Positions 1,674-58,831 of a DNA stretch of 64,000 nt are shown here, in pieces. The stretch comes from Pannonibacter phragmitetus DSM 14782 (GTDB lineage Bacteria > Pseudomonadota > Alphaproteobacteria > Rhizobiales > Stappiaceae): the NCBI RefSeq assembly GCF_000382365.1, contig NZ_KB908227.1, positions 62,001-126,000 of the forward strand. The letters are read 5' to 3'. Under the pieces are notes generated by a model. That model made no database searches, had not been told where the DNA came from, and saw only the letters and a list, made by a program, of their open reading frames with translations. Every line of letters begins with the position of its first letter. Positions within the stretch are counted from its first letter, which is position 1. The translations under genes and the position numbers were made by a program.

Positions 1674-2912
1674 ATGAACACAGCTTCCGCAGCAGGCACG
1701 ATGGACAAGGCAGAGGGCCAGAACCGCACCACGGATTTTGACGCTGCCGTCATTGGTGCGGGCCCGTCCGGCATGACCGCTGCGCTGCTGCTCGCCCGCA
1801 GGGGCTTGCGCACCGTTCTCGTCGCGCCGGAGGTGAACACCAAAGACGCCCGCACCACAGCTCTGTTGCAGGCCTCTGTTGCCCTGCTGGACGAAATCGG
1901 CGTCTGGGACAAGCTCGCGGGCCGGTCTGCACCTCTGGCCCATATGCGCCTCATCGACGACACCCGCCGCCTGATCCGCGCGCCCGAAACCACCTTCGAT
2001 GCCTCGGAGCTCGGACTGGAGGCCTTCGGCTACAATGTGCTGAACCGGGAGCTGAACGCGGAGCTGGAAGCTGCAATCAACGCGGCTGGCGGCCTCACAT
2101 GGATCAGGACCCGCCTTGCGAAGCTGGAGCCTGCCGAAACAGACGTGCGCCTGACGCTCGAAGACGGCACCACGCTGACGGCTGCCCTTGCCGTGGGCGC
2201 CGACGGCCGCAAATCCATGGTGCGGCAGGCTGCCGGGATTGATATCCGCGAATGGTCCTATCCGCAAATGGCGCTGGTGATGAACCTGGAGCATGACCGG
2301 CCGCATGGCTCGGTCTCCACCGAATTCCATACCCCCACAGGCCCCTTCACGCTGGTGCCGCTGCCGGGGCGCATGTCGTCGCTCGTCTGCGTCGTCACGC
2401 CGGAAACGGCCACCCATCTCAAGGCCTATGAAGATGGCGCGCTGGCGGTGGAGCTGGAACGGCGCGCCCATTCGGTGCTCGGCGCCTTTCGCATTGCCAG
2501 CCCGCGTCAGGTCTATCCGCTCAGCGGCATGATCGCCAGGAAAGCCGCCGCCAACCGCTGCGCCCTCATCGGCGAGGCGGCGCATGTGTTCCCGCCCATC
2601 GGTGCGCAGGGGCTCAATCTGGGCCTGCGCGATGTGGCCGATCTCGCCCGGATCGCAGGCGAGGCGAAGGCCCGCGGCGAGGATGTGGGCAGCGCTCTGA
2701 CGCTCGCCCGCTATGACAGCGCCCGCAAGCCGGACATCACCAGCCGCACCACGGCGGTGGATCTCCTCAACCGCTCGCTGCTGACGGATATGCTCCCCGT
2801 CCAGGCCCTGCGCTCCCTCGGCCTCTACGCCGCCGGCCGCTTCCCGCCCTTGCGCAAATTCCTGATGCGCGAGGGGATTACGCCAAAGGCAACCCGGCTG
2901 CTGCCGTTCTGA
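1674..2912 (+). CDS. UbiH/UbiF-family FAD-dependent monooxygenase
   Basis: The 412-residue protein has the layout of class A flavoprotein hydroxylases. The dinucleotide motif VIGAGPSG is at residues 27-34, the NAD(P)H/FAD motif VGADGRKS is in the middle, and the FAD-ribityl motif is GEAAHVFPPIGAQGLNLG. The usual Asp of GDAAH is replaced by Glu. The best match is the ubiquinone-ring hydroxylase group (UbiH/UbiL in alphaproteobacteria), which hydroxylates the aromatic ring of the quinone precursor at the membrane. The open frame extends upstream to 1461, but the ATG at 1674 (alternative 1701) gives the expected N-terminus just before the Rossmann fold. The gene is isolated, with no other ubi genes nearby, so the exact ring position modified is not inferable. 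Confidence 0.75.
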   Translation: MNTASAAGTMDKAEGQNRTTDFDAAVIGAGPSGMTAALLLARRGLRTVLVAPEVNTKDARTTALLQASVALLDEIGVWDKLAGRSAPLAHMRLIDDTRRLIRAPETTFDASELGLEAFGYNVLNRELNAELEAAINAAGGLTWIRTRLAKLEPAETDVRLTLEDGTTLTAALAVGADGRKSMVRQAAGIDIREWSYPQMALVMNLEHDRPHGSVSTEFHTPTGPFTLVPLPGRMSSLVCVVTPETATHLKAYEDGALAVELERRAHSVLGAFRIASPRQVYPLSGMIARKAAANRCALIGEAAHVFPPIGAQGLNLGLRDVADLARIAGEAKARGEDVGSALTLARYDSARKPDITSRTTAVDLLNRSLLTDMLPVQALRSLGLYAAGRFPPLRKFLMREGITPKATRLLPF

Positions 2913-2935
2913 CGGGAGCGCCCCTCCCCACCTCC

Positions 2936-2957
2936 GTCAAGCCGTGGCATGACGGAG
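2936..2957 (-). repeat. REP-like palindrome, family A (partial copy)
   Basis: On the minus strand it reads GTCATGCCACGGCTTGAC, then diverges. This is one arm and the loop of the family A element; the second arm is missing. It lies 23 bases after the UbiH-type gene. Confidence 0.6.
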
Positions 2958-3112
2958 GGTGGGTTGAGCGCTCTGCTCTACTCACCCCAAGCCTTGCCCC
3001 AGGCATCAGGCCCCCTGCCTCCATCGTACGGTCGCCCCGCCGCTCTGCCTCCCCGGCGTACTGTCTTCTCCCCGCTGCGCTGTCTCCCCGCACGGCATGC
3101 CCTCCCCGCTTT

Positions 3113-3143
3113 CGTCATGCCACGGCTTGACCGTGGCATCCAT
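3113..3143 (+). repeat. REP-like palindrome, family A (full copy)
   Basis: GTCAT, stem TGCCACGG, loop CTTGA, stem CCGTGGCA, TCCAT. A full 8-bp stem with the CTTG loop seen in other palindromes in this window. Confidence 0.75.
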
Positions 3144-3206
3144 TCCCCGAGCTCGCCGCACGGGGACAAAACACGAATGATTTGCTGGGTGGAGAGGCAA
3201 CGGCAT

Positions 3207-3236
3207 GGGTGCCACGGCCGAGCCGTGGCATGACGG
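3207..3236 (-). repeat. REP-like palindrome, family A (full copy, inverted)
   Basis: TGCCACGG CCGAG CCGTGGCA followed by TGACGG. It has the same stem as the copy at 3113-3143 but opposite orientation, about 60 bases away, so the two form an inverted pair. Confidence 0.7.
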
Positions 3237-3312
3237 AGCGGGTGGCGTGGCTCGTTCGTCACCTTCAACGGCCATGGCGTCTAGCCGTTTGAGCACCCAA
3301 TCCATATCCCCG

Positions 3313-3349
3313 AATACAAATCAGGCCCACGGTTTCCCGGAGGCCTGAG
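3313..3349 (-). terminator. Putative terminator of the polyamine operon
   Basis: On the minus strand CAGGCC ... GGCCTG encloses a shorter inner pairing around a GAAA loop and is followed by ATTTGTATT. It lies just after the stop of the carboxynorspermidine dehydrogenase gene at 3373. The T-run is weak. Confidence 0.5.
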
Positions 3350-3372
3350 AAGGTCTTGCGGTGCGGTCCGGG

Positions 3373-4620
3373 TCAGGCCGTGAAGGGCCGGGTGCCGGAG
3401 GCGTCCTTGATTTCGGTCGGCAGGCCGATGCGGTTGAGGATGGCGAGGAAGGGCTTGGGGTCAAGCTCCTCGACATTCTTCAGCGCGCCAACGTCCCAGG
3501 TGCCGTCGGCGATCAGCATGGCGGCAGCGACCGGCGGCACGCCGGCGGTGTAGCTGATGCCCTGCGAACCGACTTCGTTGTAGGCTTCCTTGTGGTCGGC
3601 CACGTTGAAGACGAGCACTTCGGCCGGCTTGCCGTCCTTCTTGCCCTTCACCAGCGTGCCGATGCAGGTCTTGCCGGTGTAGTCGGGCGCGAGCGAGGAC
3701 GGGTCCGGCAGCACGGCCTTGACCACCTTCAGCGGCACGACTTCCACGCCTTCCGCCGTCTTGACCGGCTGTTCGGACAGGAGGCCGAGGTTCTTCAGCA
3801 CGGTGAAGACGTTGATGTAATGGTCGGAGAACCCCATCCAGAAGCGCACGTCCGCCTGCGGATAGTTGGCCGAGAGCGAGTGCACCTCGTCATGGCCGGT
3901 CATGTAGGTCTGCTGCTCGCCGACGACCGGCATGTCCCAGACCTTGCCGACCTCGAACATCTTGTTCGACTGCCAGGCGCCCTGCTGCCAGGAATAGACC
4001 GTGCCGGTGAACTCGCGGAAATTGATCTCCGGATCGAAGTTCGTGGAGAACCAGCGGCCATGCGAACCGGCGTTGATGTCGATGATATCGATCGACTCGG
4101 GCTCGGTCACATATTCGTCGATGGCAAGGCGCGCATAGGCGTTGACGACGCCCGGGTCGAAGCCGACGCCCAGAATGGCGGTGACGCCCTTCTCAGCGCA
4201 GCGCTCGCGGCGCTGCCACTCGTAATTGCCGTACCAGGGCGGCGTCTCGCAGATCTTCTTCGGGTCTTCGTGGATGGCCGTGTCCATGTAGGCCGCACCG
4301 GTCTCGATGCAGGCTTCCAGCACGGTCATGTTGACGAAGGCAGAACCGACGTTGATGACAATCTGCACGCCGGTCTTGCGGATCAGGTCCGCAACGGCGG
4401 CAGTGTCCATCGCATTGAGGGCATGGGCTTGAAGAACACCCTCGACCTTCAGGCTGCCTTTTTCGCGGACGCTGTCCAGAATCCGCTCACACTTCGCAAC
4501 GGTGCGCGAAGCAATATGAATGTCGCCGAGCAGGTCGTTGTTCTGCGCACATTTATGCGCGACAACCTGCGCTACGCCACCGGCGCCGATGATGAGTACG
4601 TTGCGCTTCATTTCGCCCAT
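3373..4620 (-). CDS. Carboxy(nor)spermidine dehydrogenase (saccharopine dehydrogenase family)
   Basis: A 415-residue NAD(P)-dependent enzyme with an N-terminal Rossmann motif (VLIIGAGGVAQVVAHK, about residues 8-23) and the saccharopine-dehydrogenase fold. It would join aspartate semialdehyde to a diamine by reductive condensation, giving carboxyspermidine from putrescine or carboxynorspermidine from diaminopropane. The assignment rests on the family and on the adjacent decarboxylase gene, the standard partner in the alternative spermidine pathway. AAGGAGG lies three bases before the ATG at 4620; an in-frame ATG at 4611 (MKRNVL) is better spaced and may be the true start. It is the second gene of the pair, with a hairpin in the 50-base gap. 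Confidence 0.88.
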   Translation of the reverse strand: MGEMKRNVLIIGAGGVAQVVAHKCAQNNDLLGDIHIASRTVAKCERILDSVREKGSLKVEGVLQAHALNAMDTAAVADLIRKTGVQIVINVGSAFVNMTVLEACIETGAAYMDTAIHEDPKKICETPPWYGNYEWQRRERCAEKGVTAILGVGFDPGVVNAYARLAIDEYVTEPESIDIIDINAGSHGRWFSTNFDPEINFREFTGTVYSWQQGAWQSNKMFEVGKVWDMPVVGEQQTYMTGHDEVHSLSANYPQADVRFWMGFSDHYINVFTVLKNLGLLSEQPVKTAEGVEVVPLKVVKAVLPDPSSLAPDYTGKTCIGTLVKGKKDGKPAEVLVFNVADHKEAYNEVGSQGISYTAGVPPVAAAMLIADGTWDVGALKNVEELDPKPFLAILNRIGLPTEIKDASGTRPFTA

Positions 4621-4648
4621 AGTCCTCCTTGGGTCTCTAAGGGTTGCA

Positions 4649-4667
4649 CAGCCTCAAGCTGAGGCTG
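4649..4667 (-). promoter_or_regulatory. Intercistronic stem-loop in the polyamine operon
   Basis: CAGCCTCA AGC TGAGGCTG forms a perfect 8-bp stem between the decarboxylase stop and the dehydrogenase start. There is no T-run on the transcribed strand, so partial attenuation or mRNA stabilisation is more likely than full termination. Confidence 0.5.
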
Positions 4668-4670
4668 AAA

Positions 4671-5768
4671 TCACGACAGGGCCGCCGTGAAATCGTCATA
4701 GGTGAAGTCGCGGGCAAGGCGCACGGAGCCATCCAGTTCCTTCACCGCAATCGCCGGCATCTTCACGCCATTGAACCAGTTCTTCTTGACCATCGTGTAG
4801 CCCGCTGCATCCTGAATGGAGAGCCGGTCACCGGCAGCCAGCGGCTTTTCAAAGCGGAACTCGCCGAAAATATCACCCGCAAGGCAGGACTTGCCGCAGA
4901 CCATCCACTCGTGATCACCCGCATTGGGCTCAACCTTGGCGCTCTGCCGGTAGATCAGCAGATCCAGCATGTGTGCCTCGATGGAGCTGTCGACGATGGC
5001 AAGGTTCTTGCCGTTGTGCAGCGTGTCCAGCACGGTCACTTCCAGCGTGGCGGACTTTGTGATCGCCGCCTCGCCGGGCTCCAGATAGACCTGCACTTCG
5101 TTTTCGCCCGCAAAGCGCTTCAGCCGCTCGGCAAACTTCTCCAGCGGATAGCCCTCGCCGGTGAAATGAATGCCGCCGCCGAGGCTGATCCATTCCATCT
5201 GGCGGATGAGGAAGCCGAAACGCTGCTCGATATGGCCGAGCATGCCGTCGAACCGGTCAAAATTCGCGTTCTCACAGTTGTTGTGGAACATGAAGCCGGT
5301 GATCTTGTCCGCGACCTTTGCGATCGTCTCCGGGTCATGCTCGCCAAGGCGCGAGAACGGGCGCGCCGGATCAGCCAGATCAAAGTCCGAGGTGGATACA
5401 CCCGGATTGACGCGCAGGCCGCGCACATGGTTTGCCGACTGGCTCTCGAAACGCTCCAGCTGGCCGATGGTGTTGAAGATGATCTTGTCGGACGAGGCAA
5501 TCACCTCGTCGATCTCATCCGGCGCATAGGCCACAGAATAGGCGTGCGTCTCGCCGGGGAATTTCTCCCGGCCGAGCTTCACCTCATAGAGCGACGACGA
5601 GGTGGTGCCGTCCATGTAGTGGGACATGAAGTCGAACACGGACCAGGACGCAAAGCACTTGAGCGCAAGCAGCGACTTTGCGCCGGAGGCTTCACGCAGC
5701 CATGCGATCTTCTCCATGTTCGGCAGAAGCTTCGACTTGTCGATCAGATAATAGGGGGTGGAAATCAT
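4671..5768 (-). CDS. nspC: Carboxynorspermidine/carboxyspermidine decarboxylase
   Basis: The 365-residue PLP-dependent decarboxylase of the alanine-racemase fold removes the carboxyl group from carboxy(nor)spermidine to give the free triamine. Visible marks are LALKCFA with the likely PLP lysine at residue 37, the SLGGGIHFTGEGYP phosphate-binding loop, EPGEA, and a C-terminal VCGKSCLAGDIFGE with the substrate-site Cys/Asp. The open frame reaches 5849, but the ATG at 5768 has AAGGG seven bases upstream and gives the family N-terminus MISTPYYLID. It precedes the dehydrogenase on the minus strand and is likely co-transcribed with it. Confidence 0.9.
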   Translation of the reverse strand: MISTPYYLIDKSKLLPNMEKIAWLREASGAKSLLALKCFASWSVFDFMSHYMDGTTSSSLYEVKLGREKFPGETHAYSVAYAPDEIDEVIASSDKIIFNTIGQLERFESQSANHVRGLRVNPGVSTSDFDLADPARPFSRLGEHDPETIAKVADKITGFMFHNNCENANFDRFDGMLGHIEQRFGFLIRQMEWISLGGGIHFTGEGYPLEKFAERLKRFAGENEVQVYLEPGEAAITKSATLEVTVLDTLHNGKNLAIVDSSIEAHMLDLLIYRQSAKVEPNAGDHEWMVCGKSCLAGDIFGEFRFEKPLAAGDRLSIQDAAGYTMVKKNWFNGVKMPAIAVKELDGSVRLARDFTYDDFTAALS

Positions 5769-53065: not shown

Positions 53066-53821
53066 TCAGGCCGCCGCGCCGACGTAATCGGCGTAGCCGT
53101 TCTTCTCCAGCTCAAGCGCCAGTTCCTTGCCGCCGGTCTTGACGATCTTGCCCTTGGACAGAACATGGACGACATCCGGCACGATATGGTCGAGCAGGCG
53201 CTGGTAGTGGGTGATGACGATCATCGAACGCTCCGGCGAGCGCAGCTTGTTGACGCCTTCCGAAACGATGCGCAGGGCGTCGATGTCGAGGCCGGAGTCC
53301 GTCTCATCCAGCACGCAGAGGCTGGGTTCCAGCAGCGCCATCTGCAGGATTTCCGAACGCTTCTTCTCGCCGCCGGAGAAACCGACGTTGAGCGGGCGCT
53401 TCAGCATGTCCATGGTGACGTTAAGGTCAGCCGCCTTGGACTTGACCAGCTTCAGGAAGTCCGGAACCGACAGCTCGGCCTCGCCGCGCGCCTTGCGCTG
53501 TGCGTTGAGGGCGGTCTTCAGGAACTCCATCGTGGCAACGCCGGGGATCTCGATCGGATACTGGAAGGCAAGGAACACACCGGCAGCCGCACGTTCGTCG
53601 GCTTCCATCTCCAGGAGGTTCTCACCATTGAACAGGATCTCGCCCTCGGTGACCTCATAGTCTTCCTTGCCCGCCAGAATGTAGGACAGGGTCGACTTTC
53701 CGGAGCCGTTCGGGCCCATGATGGCGTGAATTTCGCCTGCCTTCACGGTCAGGTCGATGCCGCGCAGAATCTCGGTGCCGTCTTCGGCGATGCGGGCGTG
53801 CAGGTTCTTGATCTCAAGCAT
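53066..53821 (-). CDS. sufC: Iron-sulfur assembly ATPase SufC
   Basis: A 251-residue ABC-type ATPase with Walker A (GPNGSGKSTLSY, about 34-45), signature FSGGEKKRSEILQM, and Walker B CVLDETDSGLD. It drives cluster assembly on SufB and SufD. The start at 53821 has GAGGA upstream. In most genomes it is very close to sufB; here about 890 bases separate the genes, filled by repeats and a GIY-YIG gene. Confidence 0.96.
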   Translation of the reverse strand: MLEIKNLHARIAEDGTEILRGIDLTVKAGEIHAIMGPNGSGKSTLSYILAGKEDYEVTEGEILFNGENLLEMEADERAAAGVFLAFQYPIEIPGVATMEFLKTALNAQRKARGEAELSVPDFLKLVKSKAADLNVTMDMLKRPLNVGFSGGEKKRSEILQMALLEPSLCVLDETDSGLDIDALRIVSEGVNKLRSPERSMIVITHYQRLLDHIVPDVVHVLSKGKIVKTGGKELALELEKNGYADYVGAAA

Positions 53822-53942
53822 TGAGATGGTCCTCATTTCGGTCCGGATTCAAGGTCCGGTGTGTGTCATCAGTCTCAGGAGCCGGATGGCGGGCATCTGC
53901 CTGTATCCGGCGTTCAATCACGTTTGGCCAAGGCCTTGCTTC

Positions 53943-53973
53943 CGTCATCCCCGGGCTTGTCCCGAGGGTCTAC
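53943..53973 (+). repeat. REP-like palindrome, family B, copy 1
   Basis: CGTCATCC, then CCGGG CTTGT CCCGAGG, then GTCTAC. It is the left boundary of the decayed GIY-YIG remnant and points in the opposite direction to copy 2. Confidence 0.85.
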
Positions 53974-54086
53974 ATCAGTTTTCACCCGAAGGCCGGTCCG
54001 ACTGATTGCAGTCATTCCACGTCCTCGTGTTTTGATTTGGCATTCCCGATCCCGTCCCATAACCCATACCTGCTGATCCAGTCTGG
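53974..54086 (-). pseudogene. Apparent 3' remnant of a second GIY-YIG nuclease gene
   Basis: Read on the minus strand, the 60 bases running from TGGAATGACT into copy 1 align without gaps to the 60 bases covering the end of the intact GIY-YIG gene and its flank at copy 3: I count about 43 identical positions. The last 14 or so belong to the repeats, so the test is the first 44. The stop codon position falls 28 bases from the repeat in both places; here TAG is CAG. The rest of the gene is gone and a REP copy sits at the break. The alternative is a shared extension of the repeat rather than a gene. Confidence 0.5.
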
Positions 54087-54116
54087 CAGATCCTCGGGAC
54101 AAGCCCGAGGATGACG
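54087..54116 (-). repeat. REP-like palindrome, family B, copy 2
   Basis: CAGATC CTCGGG ACAAG CCCGAG GATGACG on the plus strand, the inverse of copy 1. It closes the unit that contains the remnant. Confidence 0.9.
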
Positions 54117-54233: not shown

Positions 54234-54264
54234 CGTCATCCTCGGGCTTGTCCCGAGGATCTAC
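54234..54264 (+). repeat. REP-like palindrome, family B, copy 3
   Basis: CGTCATC CTCGGG CTTGT CCCGAG GATCTAC. It lies 28 bases downstream of the GIY-YIG stop, in the same orientation as copy 1. Confidence 0.9.
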
Positions 54265-54292
54265 AGAGCCTTCAGCACGAAGATAGTTCCGG

Positions 54293-54634
54293 CTAATTGT
54301 AGTCATTCCACATCTGCGTATTTTCGTGCGGGTTATAGACATTTTCGATTTCGCCCATTCTTTCGTACAGATCGAGCCAGGTCGGGTTCAGTCCTTCAAT
54401 CAGCCTGATTTTCCATTCGCGCAGATAACGCTTCAGGGACTTCTCCCGCTGTATCGCCAGAACGATATTGGGGTGGCATTCAAACCAGACGAGGCTCTTG
54501 GCCTTGTACTGAGACGTGAACCCCTTCCTTATTCCTTCCCGGTGCTCCCAGATGCGCTTCTCCAGGTCGCTGGTCACGCCGGTGTAGATCACCCCTCGCG
54601 GCTTGTCGGACATCATGTAGACATACCCTGCCAT
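54293..54634 (-). CDS. Single-domain GIY-YIG nuclease family protein
   Basis: The 113-residue protein is a bare GIY-YIG domain of the YhbQ/UPF0213-like type: GYVYMMSDK (GIY strand), GVIYTGVTSDLEKRIWEHR (YIG strand and catalytic Arg region), SLVWFECHPNIVLAIQREKSLK (Glu region) and PTWLDLYERM at the end. The second core motif reads YTG instead of YIG. The start at 54634 follows AAAGGGAGGGC. It sits inside the suf operon between sufB and sufC in the same direction, bounded 28 and 21 bases away by inverted family B palindromes. The base composition looks lower in G+C than the suf genes. The role is not known; I infer a selfish or repeat-associated nuclease. Confidence 0.88.
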   Translation of the reverse strand: MAGYVYMMSDKPRGVIYTGVTSDLEKRIWEHREGIRKGFTSQYKAKSLVWFECHPNIVLAIQREKSLKRYLREWKIRLIEGLNPTWLDLYERMGEIENVYNPHENTQMWNDYN

Positions 54635-54655
54635 GACGCCCTCCCTTTGCCGCCG

Positions 54656-54685
54656 CAGATCCTCGGGACAAGCCCGAGGATGACG
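54656..54685 (-). repeat. REP-like palindrome, family B, copy 4
   Basis: CAGATC CTCGGG ACAAG CCCGAG GATGACG, identical in its core to copy 2. It lies 21 bases upstream of the GIY-YIG start and 28 bases after the sufB stop. Confidence 0.9.
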
Positions 54686-54712: not shown

Positions 54713-56185
54713 TTACCCCACGCTGCCTTCCAGGCTGATCGAGATCAGTTTCTGGGCTTCGACGGCGAATTCCATCGGCAGCTGCTGGATCACGTCCTTG
54801 ACGAAACCGTTGACGATCAGTGCGACCGCCTCTTCTTCCGACAGGCCACGGGCGAGGCAGTAGAACATCTGGTCGTCAGAGATCTTCGAGGTGGTGGCCT
54901 CGTGCTCGAAGACGGCCGATGCGTTCTTGCTCTCGATATAGGGCACCGTATGCGCGCCGCAGTCCTGGCCGATCAGCAGGCTGTCGCACTGGGTGAAGTT
55001 GCGGGCGTTCGAGGCCTTGCGGTGCGCCGAGACGAGGCCGCGGTAAGTGTTCTGCGACTTGCCGGCGGAAATGCCCTTGGAAATGATGCGGCTCGACGTG
55101 TTCTTGCCGAGGTGGATCATCTTGGTGCCGCTGTCGACCTGCTGATAGCCGTTCGAAACGGCGATCGAGTAGAACTCGCCGCGCGAATTGTCGCCGCGCA
55201 GGATGCAGGACGGATACTTCCAGGTGATGGCCGAGCCGGTTTCCACCTGCGTCCAGGAGATCTTGGAGTTCCTGCCACGGCAGTCGCCACGCTTGGTGAC
55301 GAAATTGTAGATGCCGCCCTTGCCGTCCTTGTCGCCGGGGAACCAGTTCTGGACGGTGGAATACTTGATCTCCGCATCATCGAGCGCGATCAGCTCGACG
55401 ACAGCCGCATGCAGCTGGTTCTCGTCGCGCTGCGGCGCGGTGCAGCCTTCCAGATAGGACACATAGGCGCCCTTGTCGGCAATGATCAGCGTGCGCTCGA
55501 ACTGGCCGGTGTTCTTCTCGTTGATACGGAAGTAGGTGGACAGTTCCATCGGGCAGCGCACGCCCTCCGGCACATAGACGAAGGAGCCGTCGGAGAAGAC
55601 CGCCGAGTTCAGCGTCGCATAGTAGTTGTCCGTCACCGGAACCACGGAGCCGAGATACTTGCGGACGAGGTCCGGGTACTCGCGCAGGGCTTCGGAGATG
55701 GAACAGAAGATGACGCCCGCCTTCTTCAGCTCGTCCTTGAAGGTCGTGACAACGGACACGCTGTCGAACACGGCATCCACGGCGACGCGGTTCTTCGGCT
55801 CGACGCCAGCAAGGATTTCCTGCTCGCGCAGCGGAATGCCCAGCTTCTCGTAGGTCCGCAGCAGCTCCGGGTCCACCTCGTCAAGGCTCGTGGGCCCTTC
55901 GACGGACTTGGGCGCGGACCAGTAATAAAGCTCCTGCAGGTCAATCGGCGGATAGCTGACACGGGCCCACGTGGGCTCTTCCATGGTCTGGAAGCGGCGC
56001 AGTGCATCGAGGCGCCACTCGGTCATCCACTCCGGCTCGTTCTTCTTGGCCGAAAGGAAGCGCACGGTTTCCTCGGAAAGGCCCTTTGCCGCCGTTTCCG
56101 ACTCGATGTCGGTGACGAAGCCATATTTGTACTGGTCGACGTCAATCGCTTTGACCCGGTCGATCGTTTCCTGCACAGCGGGCAT
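54713..56185 (-). CDS. sufB: Iron-sulfur assembly scaffold SufB
   Basis: The 490-residue scaffold protein has the conserved C-terminal [32 protein letters not shown] signature and an N-terminal helical part. The middle is a beta-helix with [18 protein letters not shown] and [22 protein letters not shown], which holds a cluster-ligand Cys region. It takes sulfur from SufS and iron to build the 4Fe-4S cluster. The start at 56185 follows GGAGACAAAG. A 156-base gap with a GCCCCG/CGGGGC hairpin separates it from the upstream desulfurase. Confidence 0.96.
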
Positions 56186-58787: not shown

Positions 58788-58804
58788 CAAAGACCGGGGA
58801 TACT

Positions 58805-58831
58805 TGATCCCCGCATGCGCGGGGATGACAA
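58805..58831 (-). repeat. REP-like palindrome, family D, copy 2
   Basis: TTGATCCCCGC ATGC GCGGGGATGACA. A simple palindrome with GATGAC at one end, as in the other families, but without the CTTG loop. Confidence 0.7.

Follow-up and report, generated by a model that had tools for sequence, protein, structure and literature searches.

The window analyzed here, a 64-kb stretch of the Pannonibacter phragmitetus genome, carries a small GIY-YIG nuclease gene between two open reading frames that we take to be sufC and sufB, as in the initial annotation (Table 1). Its product has one GIY-YIG domain (PF01541, E 4.7e-14) and no other Pfam match, in keeping with the earlier description of a 113-residue single-domain protein. 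On either side stands a REP palindrome of the form CGTC-ATCCTCGGG-CTTGT-CCCGAGGAT-CT; the two are alike at 29 of 29 nucleotides, their tags point outward, and with the bounds used here they lie 30 nt past the stop codon and 22 nt ahead of the start codon. The inverted arrangement had been noticed before, and the distances then given, 28 and 21 nt, differ from ours according to where the short tail is cut. The unit was also said to split two genes that are normally almost adjacent, and this is borne out: the sufB and sufC frames are 876 nt apart in the window, and the interval counted from 15 nt inside sufC is 32–76 nt in 11 of 19 relatives (19 of 20 were readable).

A second, gene-less inverted pair, which the initial annotation overlooked, adjoins the gene-bearing unit. 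The stem pattern, sought across the 64 kb with at most three mismatches, matches four times, where 0.05 matches are expected by chance and none of 100 shuffled sequences reaches four; all four matches lie in the sufC–sufB gap. At its left end, the gene-less pair is identical to the left end of the unit at 77 of 97 nucleotides (79%), a stretch that takes in the REP and the last GIY-YIG codons (QNTRTWNDCN in the remnant, ENTQMWNDYN in the intact gene), and the alignment score of the part between the REPs was reached by none of 500 shuffles. By this alignment, the gene-less pair is an internal-deletion derivative of the GIY-YIG unit, and the window thus carries a cassette next to its own deletion derivative.

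Table 1. Features of the sufC–sufB region, in window coordinates.
Feature	Position	Strand	Basis
GIY-YIG nuclease gene, 113 aa, Slx1/UPF0213-type (putative)	54293..54634	-	ORF list, Pfam, structure search
CGTC-tagged REP palindrome, 3' of stop codon, tag outward	54234..54262	+	
CGTC-tagged REP palindrome, 5' of start codon, tag outward	54657..54685	-	
Left REP of the gene-less derivative, stem pattern with two mismatches	53943..53971	+	
Right REP of the gene-less derivative	54088..54116	-	
3'-end remnant of GIY-YIG gene within the gene-less derivative	54002..54033	-	
sufC (presumed), left neighbor, used as anchor	53066..53836	-	
sufB (presumed), right neighbor, used as anchor	54713..56185	-	

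The flanking palindromes fit the CGTC superfamily of REPs, which, as described (PMC3733652), has a CGTC or TGTC tag, a stem of 8–9 bp starting with AT, a loop of 4–5 nt, mostly a CCA tail, and an arrangement in opposed pairs. Those of the window have a 9-bp stem starting with AT, the loop CTTGT, and the tail CTA or CTG; among 304 REPs scanned in other loci, 175 end in CCAG, CCAT, or CCAC. That 2013 paper reports CGTC REPs from all alphaproteobacterial orders and describes them as apparently lacking a dedicated transposase, tyrosine and other transposase classes having been examined (Di Nocera, PMC3733652). No transposase is associated with the repeats there, and the string "giy" occurs zero times in its text, so that a link to GIY-YIG genes is new relative to it. 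Reports of CGTC REPs extend to Bacteroidota, Rickettsia, Wolbachia, and Neisseria.

What the initial annotation had called a family B stem is not, in its exact form, abundant. Genome-wide, at up to three mismatches, the window stem is confined to its four sites, three exact and one with two mismatches, and the other 15 matches of that search have a different inner stem; the window's own REP stem has not spread within its genome. The abundant REP core of this genome is CYCGGCCTTGNGCCGRG, with 58 sites, and it fits the core pattern of the locus L002. There are three small GIY-YIG genes in the genome, in addition to one domain in a 709-aa frame, and all three adjoin palindromes, each with a different stem. 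That of L002 is CGTCCCGGCCTTGTGCCGGGACC, with gene-less pairs on both sides of the gene; that of L001 is CGTCATGCCATGACTTGATCATGGCATCC, with REPs on the 3' side only. Elsewhere in the window there is a second pair of CGTC REPs, of another family (CGTCATGCCACGGCTTGACCGTGGCATCC; 3113-3145 on the plus strand and 3203-3235 on the minus strand), whose tags point outward and which, being about 60 bp apart, leave no room for a gene. A lone REP-like palindrome with a 4-nt loop, the other loop class, lies at 58801-58830 on the minus strand (TGTCATCCCCGCGCATGCGGGGAT).

Five residues of the window protein, Y6, Y17, R27, H31, and E64, are invariant or nearly so across 30 relatives and have catalytic roles in this class of nuclease; the Y, Y, R, H, E set conserved in UPF0213/Slx1-type GIY-YIG proteins is present. 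(Alignment A2 leaves out L032, whose frame is broken, and L030, whose first frame is a fragment only.) The dN/dS of the gene is 0.14 against L056/L039, and against L057, L058, L062, and L063 the proportions of synonymous and non-synonymous differences are 0.71-0.92 and 0.13-0.16, values that indicate purifying selection. In a Foldseek search with the predicted fold (pLDDT 84), beside which a profile search was also run, the sole match with E below 0.001 is the UPF0213 protein BH0048 (8e-4), and the branched-DNA nuclease Slx1 comes next at E about 0.01. On this model, the protein has the fold of UPF0213 and, at weaker E-values, of Slx1. It resembles the stand-alone prokaryotic Slx1-type GIY-YIG/UPF0213 proteins (structures 1zg2 and 1ywl) in having a single GIY-YIG domain and the same fold, and we infer that the gene belongs to the Slx1 cluster of PMC1564403. 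In that paper, stand-alone prokaryotic Slx1 orthologs are predicted to be double-strand break repair enzymes and are linked to methyltransferases; the string "palindrom" occurs zero times in this text, unlike the situation here, where the gene is flanked by REPs.

By the measure used across genomes, which starts 15 nt inside sufC, the sufB–sufC interval is 891 nt in the window and 120-905 nt in the 8 relatives without the short form. All nine close homologs examined (the window, seven other loci, and Shinella L137) lie between sufB and sufC. The REPs are identical at 29 of 29 positions between the window and the Rhizobiaceae loci L057, L058, L062, and L063; such identity is not universal, because the suf-site loci L056/L039, L059, and L061 show one to a few differences from the window's REP, and at L060 no matching REP pair lies within 200 bp. 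Within the window's own genus, where sufB is 91-96% identical, the unit and the gene-less pair occur together at suf in one genome (G200), the genome nearest to the window (G116) has a single hybrid palindrome that looks tagged at both ends, and two more (G199 and G201) have neither unit nor gene-less pair. The suf synteny, together with presence and absence in near relatives, means that the unit is old at this place and yet variable among near relatives. The window unit is thus an old resident of the gap, probably passed on by vertical inheritance, and not a recent arrival. At the L002 site, the same gap holds different GIY-YIG units with different REPs within the one genus (G000 on the one hand, G116 and G201 on the other), a gene-less pair in G200, a remnant in G199, and a further unit in G203, which belongs to another genus.

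The residence of the gene at sufB–sufC in Pannonibacter, the seven other loci, and Shinella, as well as the signs of purifying selection, would suit a domesticated host enzyme, a nuclease that processes REP hairpins or cruciforms for genome maintenance, with the REPs as regulatory elements or by-products. The modeled resemblance of UPF0213 relatives to the branched-DNA nuclease Slx1 points the same way, as does the precedent of TnpAREP, which is described in PMC8266576 as a domesticated transposase. We nevertheless consider this distinctly unlikely. The gene occurs in only 113 of the 199 genomes of the order, as found with a profile of the three proteins of the window's genome, and members of a single genus differ in whether they have it at suf. 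Moreover, a host gene would have no need of matching inverted REPs that vary with the type of protein, and in the genus g64, discussed below, cassettes are multicopy and dispersed.

The association of small GIY-YIG genes with inverted matching REPs is established across several samples. To score flanking, the 200 bp before a gene were compared with the 200 bp after it and the best inverted match without gaps was taken, and the controls were ORFs of the same loci, called greedily by length, with some false ORFs among them; for mismatched pairs from a first set of 32 frames, the 95th and 99th percentiles of the score were 16 and about 21. First, in 80 named loci, the best among 583 confirmed relatives, 48 of 84 GIY-YIG genes score at least 20, against 2 of 1049 control ORFs. 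Second, in 60 loci from multi-copy genomes, the counts are 31 of 60 and 2 of 221. Third, at a score of at least 18, they are 21 of 28 and 1 of 124 in other alphaproteobacterial orders and 13 of 34 and 0 of 112 in other classes of the phylum. With the three samples pooled at a score of at least 18, 117 of 202 GIY-YIG genes are flanked, against 5 of 1495 control ORFs (p about 1e-117), and the remaining 85 genes fall below the threshold. Flanked members occur in 83 of 121 protein clusters at 70% identity and in 8 of 11 at 60%. The initial annotation had predicted that these genes would be REP-flanked far more often than others, and the prediction holds; the palindromes are not equally common beside unrelated small genes, only 1 of the 366 pooled control ORFs of up to 150 aa being flanked.

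Before these counts, frames with a domain match shorter than 180 nt were dropped (200 nt in the survey of loops and REP types), as were genes within 60 bp of a locus end in the first sample or 100 bp in the second, third, and pooled ones, frames longer than 600 bp in the first sample, and exact duplicate loci in the pooled count. Both over-threshold controls of the first sample are frames on L082 that cross REP arrays, not real genes; they are counted all the same, and one of them stays in the pooled count once duplicates are removed. A chance neighborhood of common palindromes could appeal to the commonness of REPs and to nothing beyond; set against the stem enrichment in the window and the control counts of all samples, it has a negligible probability, and the control ORF counts lead us to reject chance and a REP-rich neighborhood as such.

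Locus L082 itself (Rhizobium bangladeshense, 2200-5200) holds two near-identical GIY-YIG units, whose proteins are 95% identical, and after them several gene-less palindrome pairs; its REPs extend into open frames, in which peptides such as VIPGLDPGIH recur. On plasmids, the GIY-YIG gene is REP-flanked at loci of CIAT894 and Shinella WSC3-e and is without REP flanks at the one R. tumorigenes locus read (L421); among the matches listed (the best 40 of 124 and 30 of 169 records), there was no clean filled/empty plasmid pair.

In RAYT systems, according to PMC2817692, the gene sits between two inverted REPs, gene and REP co-evolve, and REP abundance is linked to the gene. Nuclease and REP also co-vary here. 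Matched REPs on both sides were found for 90 of 175 genes (87 distinct proteins), with CTTGA/CTTGT or GAAG/GAAA/GCAG as the prevailing loops. When each protein is compared with its nearest counterpart in another genome, the REP loop lengths agree for 71 of 87, where 45 are expected; a Mantel test gives rho 0.24 (0 of 2000 permutations); and the protein tree requires 15 changes of loop length, whereas 200 shuffles needed 27.5 on average and never fewer than 22. A paralog test is weaker, with 17 of 28 cases for co-variation, 3 ties, and 8 against.

As to abundance, at least five copies of the CGTC/CTTG pattern are present in 55 of the 113 genomes that have the gene, against 16 of the 86 that do not (p 1.2e-5), in a comparison that covers the 5-nt loop type only and whose genomes are not independent; a reversed control pattern has 2 matches over the 199 genomes. 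REP load is thus higher with the gene, yet 16 REP-rich genomes are without it, and the window's own stem is rare. Those 16 (G022, G031, and G076 among them) hold 5-28 CGTC REPs each; negative for the GIY-YIG gene at E 1e-8, they gave 0 of 16 matches even at E 1e-3 with an alignment that does find the gene in other genomes. REPs can therefore persist without the gene, or depend on something else, and the 16 exceptions count against a strict dependence of REPs on it; their CGTC REPs are either relics of a lost gene or due to another driver.

If another enzyme moved the REPs, with the GIY-YIG genes as passengers or simply lodged in REP-rich intergenic space, these 16 genomes would be accommodated, as would the crowding of REPs and other repeats into the same intergenic spots. 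Such an account seems very improbable to us, given that symmetrical flanking is almost absent among control ORFs of the same loci and that nuclease and REP types co-vary. Y1 transposases, moreover, occur in 33 of the 199 genomes of the order and show no link to REP load, 15 of those 33 genomes being REP-rich against 56 of the 166 others (p 0.23), and a Y1_Tnp search found no Y1/RAYT transposase in the window's genome. At 30 Y1 loci, with gene bounds set by crude open frames, a CGTC palindrome was never the best inverted end match. A RAYT or other Y1 transposase as the agent is rejected on these grounds, both for this genome and as a general driver.

Copies of a cassette at unrelated places are found in g64, a genus that is presumably Mesorhizobium, since loci named as Mesorhizobium have this unit too. 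A single 513-bp unit was searched against 41 genomes. Among the matches listed, its flanks occur at one locus in most genomes, while the unit itself occurs in many other places with the same sharp ends. Both ends, located with a short tag pattern, are present at 39 of the 46 loci examined, two of these 46 belonging to a named Mesorhizobium strain. The units measure 497-541 bp from tag to tag, mostly with the boundaries CTT-CGTCAT...ATGACG-AAG, and the third base outside is G at 67 of 78 ends. By comparison of flanks, the 39 two-ended copies represent about 20 different sites. One genome (G226) has three copies; another (G237) has four at four sites, 91.7-92.9% identical to one another, with unrelated flanks. 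The unit has thus dispersed to unrelated loci in this related genus, and since copies within a genome are at most 93% identical, no very recent jump is seen. Six end-only matches that were examined include gene-less copies that retain subterminal unit sequence. At three sites (L239/L248, L119/L206, and L249/L259), the unit stands in opposite orientations in different genomes.

No target-site duplication was found at the tag boundary (0 of 39 copies at offset 0, five offsets tried), where the conserved CTT/AAG beside the tags leaves little room for a duplication match at offsets 0-2. Dinucleotides match in 8 of 39 copies at offset 4 (2.4 expected) and tetranucleotides in 2 of 39 at offset 2 (0.15 expected), and no longer matches support the excess of short ones at offsets 2-4 among the 39 copies. 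The two flanks of a copy do resemble each other in inverted form, with 5.62 of 12 positions matching within copies and 3.90 between copies (0 of 5000 permutations), the 39 copies representing 20 sites and so not all being independent. To the left of the L237 unit, 33 bp repeat the right flank in inverted form (94%); L246 is filled at the same site, but its left flank differs. Inverted flanks of this kind fit hairpin-templated repair across inverted ends, or insertion into palindromes.

Two of the g64 sites show, across the genus, filled alleles, a dual-tag solo palindrome, and alleles without any such palindrome; in all, filled, solo-palindrome, or empty alleles are found at three sites and different units at one. 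The sufB–sufC interval of close relatives had been proposed as the place to look for an empty site. Filled, collapsed, and empty intervals do occur there; an exact empty site was not found at suf, at the two g64 sites, or in the plasmid collection. The flanks of empty alleles align until roughly 10-60 bp short of the tags and differ by tens of bases beside them.

GIY-YIG is a classical homing-nuclease domain, and GIY-YIG homing endonucleases are selfish small genes, free-standing or intron-borne. In a homing-like element, the nuclease would cut solo palindromes or other REP-bearing alleles, the unit would enter by homologous repair, and the REPs would be homing sites. The dual-tag solo palindromes are suggestive of this, as they lie exactly at unit sites (G116 at suf, L219, L227, L231, and L298) and are rare elsewhere, with 2 among the 304 REPs of the loci scanned; the absence of target-site duplication in g64 also agrees with it. 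But deletion between the two REPs of a unit would also leave a solo palindrome, so that the dual-tag palindromes are either deletion scars or targets, and the empty alleles L216, L218, L223, and L224 are without any palindrome of this kind. Further, where homing invades one specific homologous allele, the copies here occupy about 20 non-homologous sites in one genus, with unrelated flanks and several per genome. The unit shares with homing endonucleases the character of a selfish small gene and departs from them in its palindromic ends, its many unrelated sites, and its want of a second domain. We judge homing to be unlikely, though credible.

Insertion sequences and their MITE derivatives are a second point of comparison: they have inverted ends, occur in many copies, and give rise to internal-deletion derivatives, all of which the GIY-YIG unit shares. 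Unlike them, it has no transposase of a known class and no target-site duplication, and it is about 0.5 kb long; target-site duplication is absent in some IS families as well. Discrete inverted ends combined with copies at unrelated loci are seen in g64 and not for the window copy. In g64, the reading of the unit as a mobile cassette is well supported.

For the system as a whole, the explanation that we find quite probable is that a REP, a GIY-YIG gene, and an inverted REP would together form a minimal mobile cassette, a counterpart of the RAYT REPtron with an unrelated enzyme. The Slx1/UPF0213-type nuclease would recognize its cognate CGTC-tagged hairpin and nick the DNA at or beside the palindrome once this has folded out into a hairpin or cruciform. 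New copies in other intergenic positions, either of the whole cassette or of gene-less palindrome pairs that stem from it, would then be made by host repair or replication, with co-evolution between the nuclease and its REP stem. The GIY-YIG nuclease as the mobilizing agent would be the simplest account of the data, and hairpin nicking with repair is the presumed step. Of the RAYT-like role that the initial annotation had proposed for the nuclease, the cassette association is supported and the enzymatic part is what we infer. As in the RAYT/TnpAREP REPtrons, as described (PMC2817692, PMC8266576), a small gene lies between inverted REPs, enzyme and REP co-vary, and gene-less REP pairs lie elsewhere in the genome; the RAYT REPtron, however, has an HUH/Y1 enzyme and a GTAG tag, in place of the GIY-YIG enzyme and CGTC/TGTC tag found here. 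Because enzyme and tag differ, the window unit would work like a REPtron without being one. Most likely, it is a REPtron-like mobile element with a Slx1/UPF0213-type GIY-YIG enzyme.

There is an open chance that this REP-mobilizing cassette forms a class of its own. In the fullest form of that idea, which we hold tentatively and at slightly less than an even chance, it would be a new class of autonomous transposable element of about 0.5 kb, whose sole enzyme is a hydrolytic, structure-specific GIY-YIG nuclease, and the CGTC REP superfamily of Alphaproteobacteria and other Proteobacteria would have its origin here. The enzyme would nick hairpins of its own CGTC-REP ends (or palindromic targets), host replication and repair would make the copies, and the process would do without any covalent transposase step. 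Among the matches listed from open-licence papers, preprints not included, none connects GIY-YIG genes with REPs, which does not prove absence from print; the keyword passages of PMC12306157 contain no occurrence of GIY.

If the mobile-cassette explanation is true, REP-type repeats arose at least twice, with unrelated nucleases, and a nuclease of about 100 residues may suffice for a mobile element. Many genes annotated only as "GIY-YIG nuclease family protein" would then become candidate mobility genes. A candidate enzyme, its cognate sites, and a many-copy genus can now be named for CGTC REPs, so that the idea is directly testable at the bench.

At L015, L117, L395, and L408, from g64 and other genomes, some units have inverted ends of 40-70 bp, longer than a plain REP, and in some of these what appears to be extra hairpin sequence replaces the short loop. 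In some species of g64, a larger palindromic repeat (CTGTCCTGCCGGACATCTCCCCC...) replaces the unit, as at L212, L214, L217, L225, L279, and other loci, and the units at L250 and L252 seemingly lie inside this larger repeat.
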